A stretch of DNA of 64,000 nt from Bradyrhizobium daqingense (lineage in GTDB: Bacteria; Pseudomonadota; Alphaproteobacteria; Rhizobiales; Xanthobacteraceae), in the NCBI RefSeq assembly GCF_021044685.1, contig NZ_CP088014.1, positions 3,210,001 to 3,274,000 on the forward strand. The letters are read 5' to 3'. The position numbers were made by a program, and so were the translations under genes. Below the pieces are notes generated by a model, which ran no database searches, was not told the origin of the DNA, and was given only the letters and a program-made list of their open reading frames with translations. Below, in pieces: positions 41,298 to 54,465 of this stretch. The stretch's first letter is position 1. Every line of letters starts with the position of its first letter.

Positions 41298-42176
41298 TCA
41301 CGCTTCGATATCCAGCGCGCAGTCGAAATTCGGCGCCGAATGCGTCAGCGCACCGGCCGAGGCGTAGTCGACACCCGTCGCCGCAATGGCTGCGATCGAA
41401 TCCAGCGTGACGCCGCCGGATGCCTCCAGCTCGAGCCGGCCTTCGTTGAGCCTCACGGCCTCACGCAGCGTGGCGAGGTCCATGTTGTCGAGCAGCACGG
41501 CGTCGGCCATTCCGGTGGTCAGCACCTCGCGCAGCTGCGCCAGCGTGTCCACCTCGATCTCGATCTTGACAAGATGGCCGGCATGGGCGCGAGCGCGCTC
41601 CAGCACCGGGCGGATGCCGCCGGCGACCGCGATGTGGTTGTCCTTGATCAGGATCGCATCGTCGAGGCCGAAGCGGTGATTGAAGCCGCCGCCGCAGCGC
41701 ACGGCATATTTCTCCAGCGCGCGCAGGCCGGGGGTCGTCTTGCGCGTGCAACAAATGCGCATGTTCGTGCCTTCGGTGCGGGCGACATAGTCGGCCGTGA
41801 GCGTCGCGACGCCGGAGAGGCGCCCGACGAAGTTGAGCGCGGTCCGCTCCGCCGTGAGAATGGCGCGCGCGGGCCCTGAGATCGTCAGCACATGCTGCCC
41901 GCGGGCAACTCGTGCGGCGTCGCGGACATGCGCGCGCACCTCGATGTCGGAGGATAGCTTCTGCAGCGTTGCCAGCGCGAGCAGCAATCCCGCAATCACG
42001 CCGGACTGGCGTGCGACCAGGATCGCCTGCGCCGTCGTTGCTTCCGGAATCGTTGCCAGCGAGGTGACATCGCCGGCGCGTCCGAGATCCTCGTCGAGCG
42101 CGCGATGCACGGCTGCGTCAATCGCGAGCGGCGAGAGGAAGGCGTCGGGATAGAGCAGTGAGGTTGCGGTGATCAT
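41298..42176 (-). CDS. nadC: nicotinate-nucleotide pyrophosphorylase (carboxylating)
   Basis: 292 aa, full length. QPRTase features: [12 protein letters not shown] near residue 30, [21 protein letters not shown], and the C-terminal barrel with [26 protein letters not shown]. It converts quinolinate and PRPP to nicotinate mononucleotide, the last step of the de novo branch. It starts 11 bases after the nadB stop and ends the nadA-nadB-nadC operon. Confidence 0.96.
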
Positions 42177-42187
42177 GGAGAACTCCC

Positions 42188-43795
42188 TCAGGCCAGCATG
42201 GGTTGCGCAATGCGCGGTGTTGAGCTATCGGCGAGGCCGTCCGCGACCTCGCGCATAGCGGCGAGCGTGGTCATCGTTCTCCGCGCCGGATCAGGGAGCT
42301 CAGCCGGGTGATCCGAGCGGAAGTGCGCGCCGCGGCTCTCGCGCCGGGTCCAGGCCGCGGCGGTCACGAGCAGCGCGGCCGTCGCCATGTTGCGCAGCGC
42401 GATGCTCGCAGCTTCGCGCTCGAGCGCGGCGAAGCTGCGCACAGCCTCTGCAAGCCCATCGGCCTCGCGGATCACGCCGACACGTCCACTCATCATCGCC
42501 CGGAGCCGTTTCACGGCCGCAGCATCCGGTACGGCGCCGTGCGACGTCACCAACGCCTCGGGTAGCCGCGCAGGCGAGGGAACGGCACAGCCGGCGATGT
42601 CCTCGGCAACGCGCGCAGCATAGACGACGGCCTCCAGCAGCGAATTGGACGCGAGCCGGTTGGCGCCATGCGCGCCGGTGCAGGACACTTCGCCGGCCGC
42701 CCACAGCCCGTCGATCGAGCTGCGGCCGCGCGCATCCACGGCAACGCCCCCCATGTGGTAATGCGCGGCCGGCGCGATCGGGATGGCCTGGCTGGCGGGA
42801 TCGATGCCTGCCGCGATGCAGCTCGCATGAACGGTCGGAAATCTCTCGGCGAAGCGCGCGCCCAGCGCCTGGCGCGCATCGAGGAACGCGCCGCGCCCGG
42901 CCGCGATCTCGGCGAATACGCCGCGCGCGACGATGTCACGCGGTGCGAGCTCGGCGAGCGGATGGCGCGCGGTCATGAAGCGCTCGCCGCGGCCGTTGAT
43001 CAGCGTGGCGCCTTCGCCGCGCAGTGCCTCCGTTGCGAGGGGCGCGGGATCACGCCCGGCCATGATGGCGGTGGGGTGGAACTGCACGAATTCGGGATCG
43101 GCGATCACGGCACCGGCGCGTGCGGCGATCGCAAGGCCGGAGCCGCCGGCCTCGCGCGGATTGGTGGTGATGGCGTAGAGATGCCCGAGGCCGCCAGTGG
43201 CGAGCACGATCGCGCGCGCGGCGAGGAGGATCGGCCGTGCCGAGGGATTGCTGGCATCGCGCAGCTGAAGACCGGTGACCGCGCCGTCCTCGGTGAACAA
43301 CGCTTCGGCGGCGAGACCTTCGACGATGCGGATCGACGGCGTGCGGCGCACGGCCTCGCTCAGCGCGGCGATGATCGCAGCGCCCGCGCCGTCGCCGCGC
43401 ACATGCACGATGCGGCGTGCCGAGTGTGCCGCCTCGCGCCCCGTGGCGAGCCTGCCTTCGAGATCGCGGTCGAACGGCACGCCATAGGCGAGCAGGTCAT
43501 GAATGCAGGGAGCAGCCTCTCGCGCGATCCTCAGCGCGACCGCTTCGTCGACGAGGCCGCCGCCGACGGCAATGGTATCGGCGGCGTGTGCTTCCGGCGT
43601 ATCGCCGTCGGCCATCGCCGCAGCGATGCCGCCTTGCGCCCAGGCAGAGGAGGCGCCCTGTCCGAGCGGCGCGGCCGATATCAGCGTCACCGGTCGCGGC
43701 GCAAGCTTCAGCGCGCAGAACAATCCGGCGAGGCCGGCACCGACGATGACGACGTGGTCGGTGCCGGGGGTGAGGTTGTTGATGTTGTTTGTCAT
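42188..43795 (-). CDS. nadB: L-aspartate oxidase
   Basis: 535 aa. FAD site [13 protein letters not shown] near the N-terminus, [23 protein letters not shown], and the conserved substrate block [14 protein letters not shown]. It oxidises L-aspartate to iminoaspartate, which NadA condenses to quinolinate. GAGGAA is 6 bases before ATG 43795; the frame continues upstream into the repeat at 43816, but those residues are repeat-encoded ([10 protein letters not shown]) and not part of the protein. Confidence 0.95.
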
Positions 43796-43985: not shown

Positions 43986-45092
43986 TCAGTTCCTCAGATT
44001 GATCATCCGCTCGACCGATCGCCTTGCACGCGCCGCAAGTGCGGGGTCGATCGTCACCTCCTCGCGGAGCGTCAACAGGCTCTCCAGGATGTTCGCGAGC
44101 GTGATGCGCTTCATGTGCGGGCAGAGATTGCAGGGGCGCAGCATCTCCACATCGGGCAGCTCGGCACGCACATTGTCGGCCATCGAGCATTCCGTGATCA
44201 TCACCAGCCGCCGCGGCCGCTTGTTGCGGACCCAGCTGATCATGTGCGCGGTCGAGCCGGTGAAGTCGGCTTCCGCCAGCACGTCCGGCGGACATTCGGG
44301 ATGCGCGATGATCTGCACCGAAGGATCGGCTTCGCGAAGGCCGCGCAGCTCATCGCCGGTGAAGCGCTCATGCACCTCGCAGGCGCCCTTCCAGGCAATG
44401 ATCTTCACGTCGGTCTTGGACGCGACGTAAGTTGCGAGATAGCGGTCGGGCAGGAAGATCACGCTGGGCGCGTTCAGGCTCTCGACCACCTGCACCGCGT
44501 TCGACGAGGTGCAGCAGATGTCGACCTCGGCCTTCACCTCCGCCGAGGTGTTGACGTAGGCGACGACAGGCACGCGGGGAAATTTCTCGCGGAGCAGGCG
44601 CACGTCGGCGCCGGTGATGCTGGCGGCGAGGGAGCAGCCGGCGCGCGAATCCGGGATCAGCACGGTCTTGCCCGGGTTGAGCAGCTTCGCGGTCTCCGCC
44701 ATGAAGTGCACACCGCACTGCACGATGATGTCGGCCTTCACCTTGGTGGCTTCGACCGCGAGCTGGAGCGAGTCGCCGCCGATGTCGGCAACGCAGTGAA
44801 AGATCTCCGGCGCCTGGTAATTGTGCGCGAGGATCACGGCGTTCCGCGCATGCTTCAGCTCGTTGATGGCCTTGATCGTCGGTGCCATCAGCGGCCATTC
44901 GATCGGCGGGATCACGTGCTTCACGCGTTCGTAGAGGGATGCCGTGGCGCGCTCGACTTCGGGTGTCCATTCCAGCGCGGGCATCGGCAGGGCGAGTCCA
45001 GGCCGGGCGGGCGCGGTGCTAGGGCGGCTGATGGTTTGGCCGTGCGGCCGTTCGGCGAAATCGTCGGGGCCGTAGATTGCGGTAATGGGCAT
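43986..45092 (-). CDS. nadA: quinolinate synthase A
   Basis: 368 aa. The three [4Fe-4S] cysteines lie in [17 protein letters not shown] and [17 protein letters not shown] and [11 protein letters not shown] are family blocks. It condenses iminoaspartate with dihydroxyacetone phosphate. GGGAGG is 5 bases before ATG 45092, so the longer frame start at 45122, which lies in the operator, is rejected. First gene of nadABC, driven from the region holding two NAD operators. Confidence 0.96.
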
Positions 45093-45112: not shown

Positions 45113-45133
45113 ATATACTCAATATGAGTATAT
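45113..45133. promoter_or_regulatory. proximal NAD operator of nadABC
   Basis: ATATACTC-AATAT-GAGTATAT: perfect 8-bp arms and a 5-base centre. 20 bases upstream of nadA ATG. Same pattern as the site 76 bases further on. Probably bound by a NrtR/NadQ-type regulator such as the one at 53497. Confidence 0.8.
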
Positions 45134-45188
45134 GTAGAGCCTGAGTAATCCGGCCAAGAGGCCGGACCAGAATGTCATTGAGACTCTT

Positions 45189-45209
45189 ATATGCTCAGTA
45201 TGAGTAAAA
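45189..45209. promoter_or_regulatory. distal NAD operator overlapping the nadA promoter
   Basis: ATATGCTC-AGTAT-GAGTAAAA, the same core (TRCTCARTATGAGTA) as the proximal site. On the minus strand it lies between a -35-like TTTGTT and a -10 TATAAG, so occupancy would block transcription. A half-site TGAGTA at 45142-45147 lies between the two operators. Bases 45210-45426 hold no gene. Confidence 0.78.
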
Positions 45210-45426
45210 CAAAAATAACACGCTTTCCGAAGATGCGCTAGGTGGAGGCGCACACATTCCCGTCAAGTCGGCGGGCCCGCCTCGGACCGGACGCAGGAAA
45301 CGCAATGCTCCCACGGCAGCCCTTCGTGGAATGCAATCGTTTTCGACTTGGGATTTTCATGCAGATGCATTAAACGGCTTGCAAGCGGCTGCTGATTTGC
45401 GAATCCGACGACAGACGAGGAACACC

Positions 45427-46680
45427 ATGTCGACACAGGTAGGCGAGCTCAGGCAGGCCTCACGTGCCTCCAACTGGCGCACCCCGGCCGTCATCATCCT
45501 CTGCGGCTGTGCGATCGGCATGCTCGGCTTCGGCCCGCGCTCGGCGCTGGGCTTCTTCGTGCAGCCGATGAGCCATGAGTTCGCCTGGGGCCGCGACGTG
45601 TTCGGTCTTGCGATCGCCGTGCAGAACCTGTTGTGGGGTCTGGGCCAGCCCGTCGCGGGCGCGGTTGCCGATCGTTTCGGCTTGTTCCGCGTGATGTGTG
45701 TCGGTGCTCTCCTATATGCCGGCGGCCTGATCCTGATGCGCTACTCCTCGACACCGCTATCACTCGACATCGGCGCCGGCGTCATGATCGGCTTCGGTCT
45801 CGCCGGCTGCTCGTTCAACCTGGTGCTGTCGGCATTCAGCAAGCTCCTGCCGCCGGAGAAGCGTGGCCTCGCCCTCGGTGCCGGCACTGCGGCGGGATCG
45901 TTCGGCCAGTTCCTGTTTGCGCCGATCGGCGTCGCGCTGATCGACAATTTCGGCTGGCAGCAGGCGCTCTCCGTCTTCGGCTTCCTGATGCTGCTGATCA
46001 TTCCGCTGTCGCTGGCACTGTCGACGCCGCCGGTCGCAGCACCGACCGACACGGCGCCTGCCGACGAGCAGACCATCACGAAGGCGCTCGCCGAAGCCTT
46101 CGGCCACCGCTCCTACGTGCTCCTGGTGCTCGGCTTTTTCACCTGCGGCTTTCAGCTCGCTTTCGTCACCGTGCATCTGCCGGCCTTCCTGGTCGATAAC
46201 GGCATCACGGCGCAAACCGGCGGCTGGGTAATCGCGGCGATCGGCCTATTCAACATCGTGGGCTCGCTCAGCGTCGGCTACCTCCAGAATTCGCTGCCCA
46301 AGCGCTACATCCTCTCCACCATCTACTTCACCCGCGCGCTCGCGACGCTCGCCTTCATCTCGTTCCCGATCACGCCGTTCTCGGCGATCGCATTCGGTGC
46401 GGTCTCGGGGCTGACCTGGTTGTCGACAGTGCCGCCGACCTCGGCGCTGGTCGCGCTGATGTTCGGCACGCGCTGGCTCGCCACGCTCTATGGCTTTGCC
46501 TTCGTCAGCCATCAGATCGGCGGCTTCCTCGGCGTCTGGCTGGGCGGCATCGTGTTCGAACGTTTCGGTTCCTACACGCCGATCTGGTGGCTCTCGATCT
46601 TGTTCGGTGTGCTCTCCGCGCTGATCAATCTTCCGATCGTGGAGAAACCGGTTCAGCGAGCGGTTGCGCAGCCTGCCTGA
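45427..46680 (+). CDS. MFS transporter
   Basis: 417 aa with 12 membrane segments. AVADRFGLFRV between TM2 and TM3 is the MFS motif A variant, and the halves are separated by a cytoplasmic loop PPVAAPTDTAPADEQTITKAL. It is similar in arrangement to oxalate/monocarboxylate-type permeases, but the substrate is not predictable. It is divergent from nadABC; the operators lie over 200 bases away, so coregulation is possible but weak. ATG 45427 is chosen over an upstream ATG at 45331 because the first TM then starts near residue 20. Confidence 0.85.
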   Translation: MSTQVGELRQASRASNWRTPAVIILCGCAIGMLGFGPRSALGFFVQPMSHEFAWGRDVFGLAIAVQNLLWGLGQPVAGAVADRFGLFRVMCVGALLYAGGLILMRYSSTPLSLDIGAGVMIGFGLAGCSFNLVLSAFSKLLPPEKRGLALGAGTAAGSFGQFLFAPIGVALIDNFGWQQALSVFGFLMLLIIPLSLALSTPPVAAPTDTAPADEQTITKALAEAFGHRSYVLLVLGFFTCGFQLAFVTVHLPAFLVDNGITAQTGGWVIAAIGLFNIVGSLSVGYLQNSLPKRYILSTIYFTRALATLAFISFPITPFSAIAFGAVSGLTWLSTVPPTSALVALMFGTRWLATLYGFAFVSHQIGGFLGVWLGGIVFERFGSYTPIWWLSILFGVLSALINLPIVEKPVQRAVAQPA

Positions 46681-46722
46681 TCGGCTAAACATCCCCGACA
46701 AACAAAGTCAGGGAGTTCAGTC

Positions 46723-47709
46723 GTGGGCACATTCAAAGCGATCCGGATCGACAAGGCGGACAAGGGCACCACCGCGCAGCTGACGCAGTTCGACGAGGCC
46801 GAACTGATGGACGGCGACGTCACCATCCGCGTGGAATGGTCGACGCTGAACTACAAGGACGGCCTTGCGCTCACAGGCAAGGCGCCGGTAGTGCGCCGCT
46901 TCCCGATGATCGCGGGCATCGATTTCGCCGGCACGGTCGAAGCGTCCTCGCACCCGCATTGGAAGGCGGGCGACAAGGTGGTCTGCACCGGCTGGGGCAT
47001 GGGCGAGACCCATCTCGGCGCTTATGCCGAGAAGGCGCGGGTGAAGGGCGATTGGCTGGTCGCTCTGCCGCAGGGCCTGTCGGCGCGCGACGCCATGGCG
47101 ATCGGTACCGCCGGCTTCACCGCGATGCTCTCGGTGCTGGCGCTGGAGAAACACGGTATCTCGCCGAAGAGCGGCCCGGTCGTGGTGACGGGCGCCGCCG
47201 GCGGCGTCGGCTCGGTTGCGACCGCGGTGCTGTCGAAGCTCGGCTACCACGTCATCGCCTCGACCGGCCGCCCCGCGGAGGCCGACTACCTGAAGCACCT
47301 GGGCGCGGCCGAGGTGATCGACCGCAACGAATTGTCGGCGCCGGCAAAGCCCCTGGCCAAGGAGCGCTGGGCGGGTGGCGTCGACAGCGTCGGCTCGACC
47401 ACGCTCGCCAATCTCCTGTCGATGACGAAATACGGTGGAGCGATCGCGGCCTGCGGCCTTGCGGCCGGCATGGACCTGCCGTCATCGGTCGCACCGTTCA
47501 TTTTGCGCGGAGTGTGCCTTCTCGGCATCGATTCGGTTATGTGCCCGATCGAGCCGCGGAAAGCCGCCTGGCAGCGTCTGGCGTCCGATCTGGATCGGAC
47601 GAAACTAACTGAAATCACTAAGGAAATTTCGCTGTCCGAGGCGCCCGACTGGGGCGCAAAAATCCTGGCCGGCGAAGTCCGCGGCCGCATCGTGGTAAAA
47701 ATTGTCTGA
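46723..47709 (+). CDS. MDR-family NADPH-dependent reductase (AcuI/YhdH-like)
   Basis: 328 aa. Zinc-free medium-chain reductase: N-terminal GroES-like part ([31 protein letters not shown]) and Rossmann part with [21 protein letters not shown]. This combination marks the YhdH/AcuI group that reduces acryloyl-CoA and similar enoyl compounds. Starts with GTG 46723 after AGGGAG at 7-8 bases. The gene lies 42 bases downstream of the MFS gene and may be cotranscribed. Confidence 0.9.
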
Positions 47710-47727
47710 CGGCGTTCAGACTTTACC

Positions 47728-47756
47728 AACCAAGCTGCTCCAATGTTGCCTTGGTT
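47728..47756. repeat. inverted repeat between the reductase and exported-protein genes
   Basis: AACCAAG (47728-47734) and CTTGGTT (47750-47756), flanked by TTACC / GGTAA in partial dyad. It may be a weak terminator or an operator; no T-run. Confidence 0.5.
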
Positions 47757-47824
47757 AGTATGGTAAGCAGCGGGTAAAGGAAAATAAGGCATCGCCCGCT
47801 GCTGGGGTCGGTTCGGAGTTGAGC

Positions 47825-48424
47825 ATGCTTGCGCGTATTGTGTTGGGGGCTGTCACGGCGACGGCGATGTTTGCGCCGGCCATTGCTGGAAGCATGAATG
47901 CCGACGAGGCGCGCCGCTTCGTCGCCGGCAAGGTGTTCGCCTTCACCTGTTTCGACGGCACACGTGGTGCAGGCCGCATCCTCGACGACCTCGGCGCCGC
48001 CGGTGCCGTGCAGTTCTCGGGTGCCGGCCCGGTCAAGCATCTCCGCCTGCCCGGCAACACGCTCCAGATCCGCGGCCAGAACGTCTGCGCCTCGATCAAG
48101 GGAATTCCGTTCGAGCCCTGTTTCAACCTGGAAAAGACCGATGATCGCAGCTTCCGCGGCTCGGTCTCGGGCATGGGCTTTGCCTATTGCGACTTCCACC
48201 ATCAGGGCGGCAATCAGATGCTGATGGCGCGCGCCGCCGCGCGTCCGCGCTCGCTGCGCGCATCGGAGCGCACTGGATCGATCGCTGCACCCCACACCGA
48301 AGTTGCCGCGCGGGTTGAGACGCCGCGCGTCGAGAGTGGTCGTCTGGAGCCGGTGAAGTCCGAAGCCAAATCGGAACCCGCGAAGACCGAGGCCCCGTTG
48401 GAGCTCCGCCGCTCGACGCAGTGA
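47825..48424 (+). CDS. exported protein of unknown function
   Basis: 199 aa. Signal peptide MLARIVLGAVTATAMFAPAIAG, then a 115-residue domain with paired Cys (FTCFDGTRGAGR, NVCASIKG, EPCFNLEK, FAYCDFHH), suggesting disulfides in the periplasm. The C-terminal 60 residues are polar and low complexity (KSEAKSEPAKTEA). CGGAG lies 6 bases before ATG 47825; the TTG 47819 is rejected. I do not recognise the family. Confidence 0.8.
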   Translation: MLARIVLGAVTATAMFAPAIAGSMNADEARRFVAGKVFAFTCFDGTRGAGRILDDLGAAGAVQFSGAGPVKHLRLPGNTLQIRGQNVCASIKGIPFEPCFNLEKTDDRSFRGSVSGMGFAYCDFHHQGGNQMLMARAAARPRSLRASERTGSIAAPHTEVAARVETPRVESGRLEPVKSEAKSEPAKTEAPLELRRSTQ

Positions 48425-48584
48425 GTTGGCTGCGGGACTCTCCATACACTCGTTTTCGTTGAAAGCATCGATCGGGCACGAAGCTGCCGCGCCGTAGTCA
48501 TACGGGCGGCGGCTTTCATGCGTTGGTAGCTGTTCGCGTCACAGTTTGCGAACGGCCGGGGACGCGGCCCTATGCAAGGGTTCA

Positions 48585-48824
48585 ATGATGTCGCTTTACT
48601 TCTTCCGCATCAGCACCGGCCGCTATTCCGGCGCCGCCGATCAGCCCTACGAGTTCGAGGACCGCGCAGCGGCGTGGACCGAAATGACCGAGGTCTGCGC
48701 CAATCTGCTCGGCAGCATCGCCCGCGGCCTGAAGCCGAACGGCGAGTGGCGCATGGAGCTGCTCGACGAAAACAAGAAGCCGGTCTTTTGTATCAGCCTC
48801 GTCGGAGAGGTTGTGAGCCGGTAG
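48585..48824 (+). CDS. DUF6894-like small protein
   Basis: 79 aa: SLYFFRISTGRYSGAADQPYEFEDRAAAWTEMTEVCANLLG with conserved RDAAW-type start of DUF6894 and a hydrophobic C-terminal strand (VFCISLVGEVV). Short cytosolic proteins of this family are abundant in Bradyrhizobium and have no known role. ATG 48585 and 48588 are adjacent; AGGG precedes them. Confidence 0.78.
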   Translation: MMSLYFFRISTGRYSGAADQPYEFEDRAAAWTEMTEVCANLLGSIARGLKPNGEWRMELLDENKKPVFCISLVGEVVSR

Positions 48825-49057
48825 ACCAAAATTCGCCTTCGCCGCTGGAGCAGCAAGGGCGGGAACGACGTCCAAGGGCCGTTCAGTCGTCCCGTAGTTT
48901 TACGTAGGAGCATGTTAACGACTGCTTGCGACAATGCGGCGCAATCTTACGGGATAAGAACCAGCCAGCATTGTTGAACTGACCCCGCCCGGTCGTCCGT
49001 CGTGACGCCTGAGGCGCGGGTGACGTGCGCGTTGCCGGTATCATCGGGATTTGTGTG

Positions 49058-50746
49058 ATGTCGAAGTTGTCGATCGTTTTCAAGCTGCTGACCGTGCTGT
49101 CGATCCTCGTGCTCTCGCTCGCCGGTGTCGGCGTGATGGCGATCGGCACGATGCAGAACATCAACGCCCACACCATTGAGATCGCGGAGAGCTGGCTGCC
49201 GAGCGTGCGGGCTCTCGGCTCGATGCGCGCTGACATCAACGAGCTGCGCGTCGCGCTGCGCCTGCACCTGATGCAGGACACCGCCGAAGGCAAGGAGGCC
49301 GCCGAGAAGCGGCTCGCAGGCCTGCGCGAGCGCATCGAGAAGACTCGCAAGGTCTACGAACCGCTGATCAACGCCGCAGAGGAGCGCTCACTCTACGAGC
49401 AATGGACCAAGGCGTGGGCCGAGTATCTGAATGGTGTGCAGGACGTCATGGCGCTGTCGCGCAAGAGCGTCGGGCGCTTCCCGACCGACGCCAACGAGAT
49501 GTTGCAGACCAAGGTGGCGAAGATGGCCCAGGCGGCCGATCCGCTGCTTCAGAGAGGCATCGAGCTCAACAACAAGGGCGCCGAACTGGAGACGAAGCAG
49601 GCGGCTGACAGCTACGCCTTGATCTTCCGCGTGCTCGTGGGCGTCATCATCGCGGCCGTCCTGATCGCGATCGGCGCGGCCTATTATCTCGTGCGCGACG
49701 TCTCTCGCGGCATTGCCTCGATCATCCGTCCGATGCAATCGCTCGGCGAAGGCGACCTATCGGCCGAGGTGCCGCATCGCGGCGAGAACACCGAGATCGG
49801 CGCGATGGCCGATGCGCTCCAGATCTTCAAGGAGGCGCTGATCGCCAAGAAGGCCGCCGACGAGGCGGCCAGGCTCGACGCCGAGGCCAAGATCGAGCGC
49901 GGCCGCCGCGTCGATGCCATCACCCGCAAGTTCGAAGCCATGATCGGCGAGGTCGTCGGCACCGTCTCTTCGGCATCGACCGAGCTCGAGGCATCCGCAT
50001 CGACGCTGACCAATACGGCGCAGCGCGGTCAGGAGCTTGCGACCGTCGTCGCAGCGGCCTCCGAGGAAGCCTCCACCAACGTCCAGGCCGTGGCCTCCGC
50101 CTCGGAGGAACTGTCCTCCTCCATCACCGAGATCAGCCGCCGCGTTCAGGACTCGGCGCGGATGGCCGCGGAAGCCGTCGAGCAGGCGGCGCGCACCAAC
50201 GAGCGCGTCAACGCCTTGTCGCAGGCGGCCTCGCGCATCGGCGACGTCGTCGAGCTCATCAACACCATCGCGGGCCAGACCAACCTGCTGGCGCTGAACG
50301 CGACCATCGAGGCGGCGCGCGCGGGCGAAGCCGGCCGCGGCTTCGCGGTCGTCGCGTCCGAGGTCAAGGCGCTGGCGGAGCAGACCGCGAAAGCGACCGG
50401 CGAGATCGGCGCGCAGGTGTCGGGCATCCAATCCGCCACCCAGGAATCGGTCAGCGCCATCCAGGAGATCGGCGGCACCATCGAGCGGCTGTCCGAAGTG
50501 TCCGCGGCGATTGCCGCCGCCGTCGAGGAGCAGGGCGCGGCGACGCAGGAGATTTCTCGCAACGTGCAGCAGGCCTCAGTCGGCACGCAGGAGGTCTCGG
50601 CGAACATCACCGACGTGCAGCGCGGTGCGATCGAGACCGGTGAGGCCTCGGTCGAAGTGCTGTCAGCGGCGAAGTCGCTCGCGACCGACAGCACCCGCCT
50701 GAAGGTCGAGGTCGCGCAGTTCCTGGAATCGGTGCGCGCGGCCTGA
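49058..50746 (+). CDS. methyl-accepting chemotaxis protein (4HB type)
   Basis: 562 aa. TM1 is about residues 8-30, then a four-helix-bundle ligand domain (about 35-185), TM2 about 187-207, HAMP 208-262, and the signalling domain with tip [18 protein letters not shown] near 407-424. Very similar in its cytoplasmic half to the receptor at 941. No CheR-binding pentapeptide at the C-terminus (FLESVRAA). Ligand unknown. Confidence 0.93.
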   Translation: MSKLSIVFKLLTVLSILVLSLAGVGVMAIGTMQNINAHTIEIAESWLPSVRALGSMRADINELRVALRLHLMQDTAEGKEAAEKRLAGLRERIEKTRKVYEPLINAAEERSLYEQWTKAWAEYLNGVQDVMALSRKSVGRFPTDANEMLQTKVAKMAQAADPLLQRGIELNNKGAELETKQAADSYALIFRVLVGVIIAAVLIAIGAAYYLVRDVSRGIASIIRPMQSLGEGDLSAEVPHRGENTEIGAMADALQIFKEALIAKKAADEAARLDAEAKIERGRRVDAITRKFEAMIGEVVGTVSSASTELEASASTLTNTAQRGQELATVVAAASEEASTNVQAVASASEELSSSITEISRRVQDSARMAAEAVEQAARTNERVNALSQAASRIGDVVELINTIAGQTNLLALNATIEAARAGEAGRGFAVVASEVKALAEQTAKATGEIGAQVSGIQSATQESVSAIQEIGGTIERLSEVSAAIAAAVEEQGAATQEISRNVQQASVGTQEVSANITDVQRGAIETGEASVEVLSAAKSLATDSTRLKVEVAQFLESVRAA

Positions 50747-50750
50747 TCCT

Positions 50751-53450
50751 TCAGCTGCTCGCCTGCGGAGCCGGCGGCGGTGCGATCTGCCGCCGGAACA
50801 GGATGCGCTGGTAGAGCCAGCCGATCGCCACCAGCACGACGCCGAGGCACATGAACGACAGCGCGCGATAGACGCCTGTCAGCGTCGACATGTCGATGAC
50901 GAAGGCCTTCAGGATCGTCAGCGCGATGACCGCGGCGGAGGCGAGCCGCGCCCGCTCCGAATTGACGAGGATGCCGACGCCGAGCAGCACCACGCCGAAG
51001 GCGAGCCAGCCGATCGAATAGGTGTATTGCTCCGCGCCCGTGGTGCCGCCGTAGAGCAGGACCGGGCCGTGATAGAAGCGTCGGATCTCCAGGGTCACAT
51101 AGCTGAGTGCGAACACCAGTGCGCCACCTGCGATCGTGTTGGCGTAGGCGACGGAGCGATGTCCCGCCACTGCATAGGACAGCAGCAGCATCAGCACGGC
51201 CGGCAGGGCATAGCCGAGCAGCAGCAGGTTGAACACGAGACCGCCGACGTCGACGCCGGAGAACAGCAACGGGTTCTCCAGGATCAGGAGGCCGAACACG
51301 CTGATGACGCCGGCGATCGCCGTGAGCGCGATTGCGCCGACATTGTGCACGAGGCTGCCGCTGCGCAGCCGCAGCCGTTCCAGCCCGATCGCCATCGCCA
51401 GCGTGGTGCAGACCTGCAGCGCGAATTCGAGCAGCGAGGGGGCCGCAGTCATGCGGCCGCCGGTGGCAAAGTGGCGGATTTCCATGAAGGCGAGCAGCGC
51501 GGTGAACAGAATGGCCGCGGCCTCGACCATGCGCAGCGGCGCGTCGTCGGCGCGGCGGCGCAGGAAGATGCTCGCACCCCAGAACGATGCGGCGGGTAGG
51601 CCGTAGCCCCAGAGCAGCCAGTTGAAGATCGGCGTGGTGCCGACGGCATCGCCGACGATACGCGGATCATAAGCGATGCGTGCGGTGACGATCGCGGCGA
51701 AGATCGCCGCGAGCCAGCGCAGGAACGGGATCGGCCGCTGCATCGAGATCCAGGCCGTGCCGAGCGACATCAGCGCGAGCGCGATGGTGAGCCAGCCCTT
51801 CTCCAGCGCGAAGGTCAGCGCCAGCGCCAGTGCGCCGAGCGTGCCGGTCGCGAACAGCGCAATGGATGTGGCAAGCCCCGGTCGATCCTCGCGGCGCGAG
51901 AGGGCTTCGGTCGCAGCACCGAAGCCGGTAGCGAGCAGCACGGCGAGGATCGCAAACGGGATCGAGCGGTCGAGATGGGCAATGCGTGCGTAGAGCGCAA
52001 CCAGGATCGCGATCGGGGTTGCGACCGCTGCCGCCGACCACACCACCGGAATGACGGCCGAGTTCGACCGGCCCTGCGCCAGGAAGCCGGCAATGCCGAA
52101 GCCGGCAGCGAAGATCGCGGCCGTCAGCAGATGCAGCGTCACGGAGCCATCGATCGCCGTCGGCCCGACACCGGCAATCGGGCCGCTCGGCAGCACCAGC
52201 ATGTCGGGATTGGCGCGCACCGCCCATTCGGCGAACACGATGAAGACGGTTGCGCCCGCCGCGCCCAGCGCACCGGTCGCGGCCGGCGCGCGCCAGGCGA
52301 CGAACAGTGTTCCGGCGACCAGCAGCGCGAAGGCGATCAGCGCCAGATCGGCATGTGCGCTCGACAGCACGATCAGCATCGCACCGAACAGATAGGCGCC
52401 GAGCGAGCTCGATGACACCGGCTCGATCTCGCCGTCCTCGATCGTCGGTCCGAACATGAAGCCGCAAACGACGAGCAGCGCGGCCAGCACGAAGCCGGCG
52501 ATCACATGGAAAGCATGCGGCGCGACCTGAAGGTGGCCGGTATCGAGGCCGGGGAAGGTCCAGAGCACGGCGAACGCGATCGTGGTCACGGCGAGCCAGC
52601 GCCATAGACGGATGCGGGCGAGGCCGAAGCTCGCGGCGGTGACGACGGCGAGATAGATATAGAGCGCCCAATAGTCCGGCTTGCCGCTGGAGACGAGGAT
52701 CGGCGTCACGAAGGCACCGACGACGCCGAGGCCCGCGAGCGCCGGGCCGTGCAGGAGTGCGGCGGCGAGTGTCCCCATGGCGACGATGCCGAGCAGCACG
52801 AAGGCCGTGGCAGGCACCAGGAAGCCGTAGAGCGCATAGGCGGCATAGATGGTGGCGAACGCCACTGCCGTTCCGGCCGCGGTGAGGATCGCGGGGATGT
52901 TGGCGATCGGCAGCGCCTCGATGGTCGAGATGCTTTCCTTGCGGCGCGTCCATTCGCCGGCGCCCAGCAGCGCCAGCGCGAACAGGCCGCCCAGGAACAC
53001 GCGCACGCCGGGGCCGAGCAGGCCGGCCTCGATCGAATAGCGCACCATGAAGAAGCCGCCGAGCGCGAGCGTAAGCCCGCCGATCCACACCACCCAGCGC
53101 GTGCCGAGCCGCTCCTCGAAGCCGGGGGCGGGCGCGGGCAGTGGCGGCGGCGGTGCGGCCTCAGGGGTCGTCTCAAGCGGCGGCTCAGCAGCGTCGGTGA
53201 TGGACGGGGCCAGCGCAAGCTCCGCGTCGGGCGCTAGCGGCGGCGGCTCTGCCTGCGTTGGTGCGGGCGTCTCTGCCTGCACCCACGCAGGCACGGGCGG
53301 CGGCTGCACCGGCCGCTGCGCGTATACCATTTCTTCGAGCGAGCTCAGCCGCCGCCGCAGCTCGGCCGCCTGGCTCGAGGCCTTGATCGCGATGAAGAAG
53401 GCGGCGATCGCGATGATCAACGCGAAGACGTCAAACGGGCCGTCGAACAT
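50751..53450 (-). CDS. DUF2339 multi-pass membrane protein
   Basis: 899 aa with about 25 hydrophobic segments. N-terminal TM (residues 3-21), a short coiled-coil region with RRRLSSLEEMV, and a Pro-rich linker (PPPVPAWVQAETPAPTQAEPPPLAP) precede the long membrane domain, whose conserved start is ERLGTRWVVWIGGLTLALGG. DUF2339 proteins have no established role. GC-rich and full length. It ends 5 bases from the convergent chemoreceptor stop. Confidence 0.88.
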   Translation of the reverse strand: MFDGPFDVFALIIAIAAFFIAIKASSQAAELRRRLSSLEEMVYAQRPVQPPPVPAWVQAETPAPTQAEPPPLAPDAELALAPSITDAAEPPLETTPEAAPPPPLPAPAPGFEERLGTRWVVWIGGLTLALGGFFMVRYSIEAGLLGPGVRVFLGGLFALALLGAGEWTRRKESISTIEALPIANIPAILTAAGTAVAFATIYAAYALYGFLVPATAFVLLGIVAMGTLAAALLHGPALAGLGVVGAFVTPILVSSGKPDYWALYIYLAVVTAASFGLARIRLWRWLAVTTIAFAVLWTFPGLDTGHLQVAPHAFHVIAGFVLAALLVVCGFMFGPTIEDGEIEPVSSSSLGAYLFGAMLIVLSSAHADLALIAFALLVAGTLFVAWRAPAATGALGAAGATVFIVFAEWAVRANPDMLVLPSGPIAGVGPTAIDGSVTLHLLTAAIFAAGFGIAGFLAQGRSNSAVIPVVWSAAAVATPIAILVALYARIAHLDRSIPFAILAVLLATGFGAATEALSRREDRPGLATSIALFATGTLGALALALTFALEKGWLTIALALMSLGTAWISMQRPIPFLRWLAAIFAAIVTARIAYDPRIVGDAVGTTPIFNWLLWGYGLPAASFWGASIFLRRRADDAPLRMVEAAAILFTALLAFMEIRHFATGGRMTAAPSLLEFALQVCTTLAMAIGLERLRLRSGSLVHNVGAIALTAIAGVISVFGLLILENPLLFSGVDVGGLVFNLLLLGYALPAVLMLLLSYAVAGHRSVAYANTIAGGALVFALSYVTLEIRRFYHGPVLLYGGTTGAEQYTYSIGWLAFGVVLLGVGILVNSERARLASAAVIALTILKAFVIDMSTLTGVYRALSFMCLGVVLVAIGWLYQRILFRRQIAPPPAPQASS

Positions 53451-53496
53451 GAAGCCTCCAGGCGACCGGCGGGCAGGGCGGCCGCGAAATCCTTGT

Positions 53497-54465
53497 CTAG
53501 CGCCGGGAGCGCACGCCCAAGCCCGGCGCGGGCCGCTCCTGAAGCACGTCGCGGCGAAAGCGATAGAGTGCTGCCGGGCGTCCGCCGGTCTGTGTCGACA
53601 TCACTCCGGTCGGTTCGACCAGGGCTTCCGTTTCGACGAGGCGGCGGAAATTCTGTTTGTGCAGGTGCCGGCCGGAGATGGCCTCCACCGTATGCTGCAA
53701 TTCGGTGAGTGTGAATTCGGCGGCCAAAAGTTCAAACACCACAGGGCGATACTTCAGTTTTGCCCGCAGCCGCGCGATCGCCGTGGCGAGAATCCGGCGG
53801 TGGTCGAACCGCATCGAGGTCCCGAGCGCGGGAAGTGCCTTGCGCGCTAATGCCGCAGGGCGGCCGTCGCGCCGTGCCTCCTCGATCAGCCCTGCCTCGT
53901 ACAGGAGCTCGTAGCGGTCGAGCACGCGCTCCTCGTCCCAGGGCGCACCATCGAGACCGAAATAGAACCGCACGCGATCCTTCCGCGGCAGCGCGCGCGT
54001 CGTCTCCGGCGTCTCCTCCTCGGCCCACCTCGTCAGCGCCGGAATGATATCGCGGGCGATGATGTCCGGCGGCTGCTCGCGCCAGTCCTCCCAGGGGAAG
54101 AAGCGGTACCATGGCTCGAAGCTGGCGCTGGTCGCTGCGAGCTCGCCACCGGAAGCACGCGTCAACGCGAGATAGCCGATCGAGACCATATGCGCGCCGG
54201 TGTCGCCGGCCTCGGCATGACGGCCGCGATCGCCGAACGTGTAGAGCTGTTCGACATAGCCGAGACGCAGGCCGGTCTGCTCCTCGACCCAGGCGCGCAG
54301 GCCGATCTCGAAGGTGCGGTGGGCGAGCGCATCGAACGGGCCGAACGGCAGGCCGGCAAGCCCGTCACCGCCGCGAGCGGTGAGGATCAGCGGCTCGTGG
54401 TCCTCGATCGCGACGATCGCGGCGGTGAGGCCGATTTCGATCGGCGTCAGCAGCGTCTCGCTCAT
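53497..54465 (-). CDS. NAD-biosynthesis transcriptional regulator (NrtR/NadQ family)
   Basis: 322 aa. Residues 10-150 form a Nudix-related domain with a broken Nudix box: the region GPFDALAHRTFEIGL then RAWVEEQTGL (about 42-65) lacks the catalytic R-E pair, suggesting ligand sensing, not hydrolysis. Residues about 240-305 form the winged helix characteristic of NrtR-like regulators, with FELLAAEFTLTELQHTVEAI and HKQNFRRLVET, ending GGRPAALYRF. Such proteins control NAD synthesis and are called NadQ in alphaproteobacteria. The operators at 45113-45209 are obvious candidate targets, about 8 kb away. Isolated gene. Confidence 0.82.
   Translation of the reverse strand: MSETLLTPIEIGLTAAIVAIEDHEPLILTARGGDGLAGLPFGPFDALAHRTFEIGLRAWVEEQTGLRLGYVEQLYTFGDRGRHAEAGDTGAHMVSIGYLALTRASGGELAATSASFEPWYRFFPWEDWREQPPDIIARDIIPALTRWAEEETPETTRALPRKDRVRFYFGLDGAPWDEERVLDRYELLYEAGLIEEARRDGRPAALARKALPALGTSMRFDHRRILATAIARLRAKLKYRPVVFELLAAEFTLTELQHTVEAISGRHLHKQNFRRLVETEALVEPTGVMSTQTGGRPAALYRFRRDVLQERPAPGLGVRSRR

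Follow-up and report, generated by a model that had tools for sequence, protein, structure and literature searches.

A NadQ operator behind a terminator-like leader hairpin upstream of nadABC in Bradyrhizobium daqingense

What does a repressor operator do when it lies behind a terminator-like hairpin in the leader of the genes it controls? This question is raised by a 64,000-nucleotide stretch of the Bradyrhizobium daqingense genome (contig NZ_CP088014.1, positions 3,210,001 to 3,274,000; hereafter the window, in whose own coordinates features are given), where two operators for NadQ, a regulator of nicotinamide adenine dinucleotide (NAD) synthesis, precede nadABC. The best explanation, to which we assign a probability of roughly 0.55, is a NadQ regulon with a terminator built into its leader. 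The operators and the regulator represent a known system and are no discovery; the coupling of hairpin and operator is the new part. An earlier note on this DNA, whose interpretation was partly supported overall, had recognised the operators and the regulator; it missed the placement of operator 2 within the predicted leader, immediately after the hairpin, which is the unusual part of the locus.

The core TRCTCARTATGAGTA occurs in two exact copies in the window, at 45116–45130 and 45192–45206, 76 bp apart from centre to centre, and six matches with up to three mismatches were obtained versus 0.61 expected from shuffles. The published NadQ consensus is ttATRCTCannntGAGYATaa (PMC5343134). All of its capital positions are matched by the 21-mer at 45113–45133 (operator 2, minus strand), which lies 21 nt upstream of nadA, within its predicted leader, while one mismatch is present in the upstream site at 45189–45209 (operator 1, minus strand), which overlaps the predicted promoter and start site. 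Thus, nadABC is preceded by consensus operators, as in other members of the NadQ family (COG4111), and the pair of operators with a common core that the earlier note had described was confirmed by both the exact-match count and the consensus fit; one of them is indeed at the predicted promoter, as it had said. The genome-wide motif scan that it had proposed returned three exact places of TRCTCANNNTGAGYA in the 8.0-Mb genome, namely both nadA operators and one at 515,870. The third copy (TGCTCAACGTGAGCA, genome positions 515870–515884, L001:1501–1515) probably arose by chance. A regulon extending beyond nadABC was rejected, because this sole additional exact core site sits within an open reading frame of 187 aa. 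In six leaders of our set (L143, L145, L149, L164, L166, and L168), the palindrome of operator 2 runs past 21 bp, with flanks that differ between leaders yet match each other (CCTAAT/ATTAGG, CCTATAT/ATATAGG, and CTAAAT/ATTTAG), so that the RNA would also make a long hairpin just 5' of the ribosome-binding site.

The genes downstream of the operators were confirmed by Pfam and NCBIfam profiles as nadA (quinolinate synthase; 43986–45092, start at 45092; TIGR00550 and PRK09375 above cut-offs), nadB (L-aspartate oxidase; 42188–43783, start codon approximate; NF005701, 2.7e-226), and nadC (quinolinate phosphoribosyltransferase; 41298–42176; TIGR00078 above cut-off), all on the minus strand. The regulator gene, nadQ (53497–54465, minus strand), lies about 8 kb from the nadA operators, in agreement with the earlier note, and encodes a degenerate Nudix-like N-terminal domain followed by an NrtR-type winged helix. 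Its product is similar over nearly the full length to the crystallised NadQ (7q91–7q94; phmmer E=1.6e-83, residues 13–316 of 7q91) and carries an NrtR_WHD domain (3.7e-22), which upheld the proposed NrtR/NadQ type. The R-E pair of the Nudix consensus GX5EX7REUXEEXGU is absent from its Nudix box, GPFDALAHRTFEIGLRAWVEEQTGL, also as claimed, and the predicted non-catalytic N-terminus together with the winged helix fits NadQ, which was named in 2016 and whose family and motif are already published (PMC5343134). A better NadQ candidate elsewhere, which the earlier note had regarded as evidence against its proposal, was looked for genome-wide, and no second protein with an NrtR-type winged helix was found in the 8.0-Mb genome. 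The suggestion of a NAD-derived ligand was not supported: NadQ is called 'Nudix-like, ATP-responsive' in the title of Minazzato et al. 2022 (J Struct Biol 214:107917, cited in PMC11452294), and ATP would be the ligand judging from that title.

The pairing of this regulator with these operators was further examined by comparing 120 Bradyrhizobium genomes, in which two forms of the module were distinguished. In form A, nadA and nadQ are approximately 80–100% and 80–95% identical to those of the window, respectively, and lie some kb apart where they are on one contig; the nadA operators are 63–138 bp apart, and both were seen in 69/69 leaders. In form B, the identities are approximately 65–70% and 51–57%, and nadQ is the gene immediately upstream of nadA. 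The two operators of this form are separated by 22 or 27 bp, and the second covers the ribosome-binding site; in L075–L080 and L083–L094, the second operator contains this site (ATACTCAcGGAGAGTATAATG) within the last 20 nt before nadA, so that operator and Shine-Dalgarno sequence share the same bases. The nadA of form A was accompanied by the nadQ of form A in 69/69 cases and that of form B by its own counterpart in 43/43, with no mixed genome. Among the eight genomes without a nadA match, seven were also without an intact nadQ. Five near-complete genomes (G155, G178, G181, G223, and G262) have no nadA, and their nadQ is absent or broken; de novo NAD synthesis was apparently lost there along with its regulator. 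That the two types are swapped or lost jointly supports the pairing of regulator and target, which, together with the homology to the solved NadQ and the sole candidate in the genome, probably holds as the earlier note had proposed. The exclusive forms look as if the NAD module and its regulator had been replaced as one unit.

Between the two operators, on the nadA strand, lies the G+C-rich hairpin TCCGGCC-TCTT-GGCCGGA (45149–45166, minus strand; 7 pairs, free energy [dG] −14.1 kcal/mol; leader fold z = −3.9). It is the homologue of an intrinsic terminator in other genera. The T-tract position (45141–45148, minus strand) has decayed to TTACTCAG in the window; a T-tract directly follows the hairpin in many relatives (e.g., L315, L160, and L295), and many sister genera have T4–T7 there. 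Nearly all of the 69 form-A leaders contain CCGGCC-loop-GGCCGG followed by ATTTCTCA or a near variant, at a constant distance to operator 2. Other genera, both within the family and within the order, have intrinsic terminators at the same position, such as GCCGGcacacGCCGG-ATGTTTTTGCG in L160 and CCGGTGGTTTCGCCGG-TTGTTTTTTC in L259, and very different stems are found there across the class (e.g., CCCGATGTGAATTCGGG-CGTTTTTT and GACGGGCAATCGCCGCCCGTC-TTTTTC); the position was kept in 16 leaders with unrelated stem sequences. A dispersed repeat was rejected, as GGCCGGATTNCTCAGGCNC occurs exactly only at nadA in the genome and its two-mismatch places have neither hairpin nor operator.

The predicted promoter lies upstream of this hairpin. 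A −35 element CTAGCG (45236–45241, minus strand) and, 17 nt from it, a −10 element TTATTT (45213–45218, minus strand) were predicted in conserved columns by homology to the CTGGCR-N17-GCTATAT element of sister genera, which is located upstream of the hairpin in the family. GCTATA has been reported as an extended −10 element in B. japonicum (PMC4842269). This assignment replaced, on comparison with the sister genera, one in which operator 1 formed the spacer between −35 TTTGAT and −10 TATTAG. In L315, L321, and L330, a TTGACA promoter is found upstream of the hairpin, and its −35 element is followed by a NadQ-like operator. The predicted order is promoter, hairpin, operator 2, and start codon.

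The distance between hairpin and operator was examined in 204 alphaproteobacterial nadA leaders with a NadQ operator, for which the order and class were mostly sampled at one or two per genus. A hairpin with a dG of at most −4, at least three T in the next 8 nt, and its base 15–21 nt before the operator core was present in 145 of the 204 leaders (genus form A, 64/69; genus form B, 0/20; family, 28/29; order, 39/56; class, 14/30), compared with 1.5–4.4% of dinucleotide shuffles of the same leaders. The hairpin base preceded the downstream operator by 17.8 ± 0.83 nt, and the upstream operator preceded the hairpin by 69 ± 33 nt (n=119). A covariation count on a MAFFT alignment was dropped because the 5' arms were misaligned, and an anchored count tries many loop lengths, so that the shuffle control is the one relied on. 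In 26 terminator-bearing leaders, no second operator was found within 300 bp at up to three mismatches; promoter repression is not evident in these leaders, where the downstream operator is the only one found. These spacings bear on the idea that NadQ dimers on the two operators loop the DNA, with an incidental hairpin. Two operators are indeed present, often 73–76 bp (~7 turns) apart in the genus, but the spacing between operators ranges from 54 to >200 bp, 26 leaders have a single operator, and the distance that is fixed is the one from hairpin to operator; because the spacing varies so much, we rejected looping as what the paired operators mainly do, and we consider this explanation very improbable.

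Leader terminators are usually part of RNA attenuation systems, and the terminator could be set by a leader RNA switch, a protein, or nucleotide pools, with operator 2 as a separate element. We consider such NadQ-independent attenuation unlikely. Rfam covariance models gave only chance-level matches to the leader (E ~4), on which a riboswitch or known RNA was rejected; the stretch from operator 1 to the hairpin is conserved in neither sequence nor length, and no antiterminator fold is visible; and the fixed distance is again that between hairpin and operator.

The gene upstream of nadA encodes a transporter of the major facilitator superfamily (MFS; 45427–46680, plus strand). It is a conserved and divergent neighbour, found in this arrangement in 50/58 loci of the genus and family, which led us to reject the idea that the hairpin terminates an upstream gene. 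The same observation counts against a broader proposal, in which the hairpin ends its own or an upstream gene's transcript and nadA is read from a second promoter within operator 2. Although TATACT/TATGCT-like hexamers are present in operator 2, the −35 element of such a promoter would land in the variable hairpin loop, and operator 2 is only ~25 nt from the start codon in many leaders, so that we give this proposal hardly any credence. The MFS gene itself may relate to NAD precursors or come under NadQ control, and a conserved stretch, TTGACGGGAATGTGTGCG, which precedes the nadA promoter and in the genus lies approximately 43–60 nt 5' of the operator 1 core, may be part of the promoter of this MFS gene.

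Repression combined with leader termination, the explanation that we prefer, draws on features established at the level of sequence: the operators, the identity of NadQ, the hairpin and T-tract of the relatives, the fixed hairpin-operator distance, and the order of promoter, hairpin, and operator 2. NadQ, encoded 8 kb away, would repress nadABC through both operators. At operator 1, it would block initiation; at operator 2, it would stall the elongating RNA polymerase once the 3' end of the transcript had reached the T-tract or the position just before it, whereupon the hairpin would form and release the polymerase. When NadQ is absent, the weak terminator would be read through. Release at intrinsic terminators occurs ~7–9 nt past the base of the hairpin, and the footprint of RNA polymerase extends ~15–18 bp in front of the active site. 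The operator core lies 18 nt past the base of the hairpin, so that a polymerase that has reached the release point would overlap the first half-site, and a NadQ dimer holding it in or just before the T-tract would give the hairpin time to act. We regard it as an even bet that DNA-bound NadQ serves as a termination switch in a device widespread among alphaproteobacteria, converting readthrough into termination by means of an operator ~18 nt behind a weak terminator and sometimes with that operator as the only visible one.

A simpler account is plain NadQ repression, in which the operators act by blocking initiation and as a simple roadblock that Mfd removes, and the hairpin is a passive leader structure contributing to RNA stability or insulation. 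Known NadQ biology requires no terminator (PMC5343134), leaders with operators 22–30 bp apart do without the hairpin (0/29), and the T-tract of the window has decayed. However, a passive hairpin needs neither T-tracts nor a class-wide fixed distance to a DNA operator, and we judge this account possible, with odds clearly against it. Termination at the leader hairpin has its own weak points. The architecture is read from the sequence, with transcription through the leader, stalling, and release inferred, and the nadA promoter and start site are predictions. The T-tract of the window has decayed to TTACTCAG, and no terminator was called there by a strict scan. The leaders share descent, so that the counts are not independent, and approximately 30 leaders outside the close-pair class scored as lacking the hairpin, some of them with other NadQ architectures. 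As for the weak T-tract of Bradyrhizobium, the roadblock might substitute for the T-tract pause, or the device may be decaying.

Termination coupled to a DNA-bound repressor in this way would, if true, be a new mode of action for such a protein and would explain why NadQ operators so often sit downstream of the nadA promoter. It would also offer a simple built-in answer, a conserved cis-acting terminator, to the clearing of stalled polymerase, a task generally attributed to Mfd or Rho. Among the papers on repressor roadblocks and intrinsic terminators that were available to us, we found none describing a stall site that comes with its own terminator.

Several known systems come close. With the NadQ (COG4111) regulon, which occurs in alpha-, beta-, and gammaproteobacteria, the present locus shares the regulator, the consensus, and the nadABC targets (PMC5343134); the published descriptions available to us mention no leader terminator coupled to the operator. 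The NrtR family (NF050029, PF21906) is similar in its winged-helix domain and NAD gene targets, but the window protein scores below the NCBIfam equivalog cut-off (64.9 vs 400 bits), and its N-terminal domain is unlike that of NrtR (PMC5343134). That repressors can act as roadblocks downstream of start sites is established, and the roadblocks of LacI, PurR, GalR, CcpA, and CodY resemble the proposed mechanism in that a DNA-bound repressor past the start site blocks polymerase (PMC10310618, PMC4132739). In these systems, release is ascribed mainly to Mfd, which clears polymerase stalled at LacI (PMC4132739, PMC10310618), whereas nadA leaders have a hairpin and T-tract at the proposed stall position. 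Finally, leader attenuators, such as those of the trp type and riboswitches, resemble the proposed arrangement in that a biosynthetic operon carries an intrinsic terminator in its leader. In the nadA leader, by contrast, neither an antiterminator fold nor a leader peptide or aptamer was seen, and the conserved partner of the putative terminator is a downstream DNA operator.

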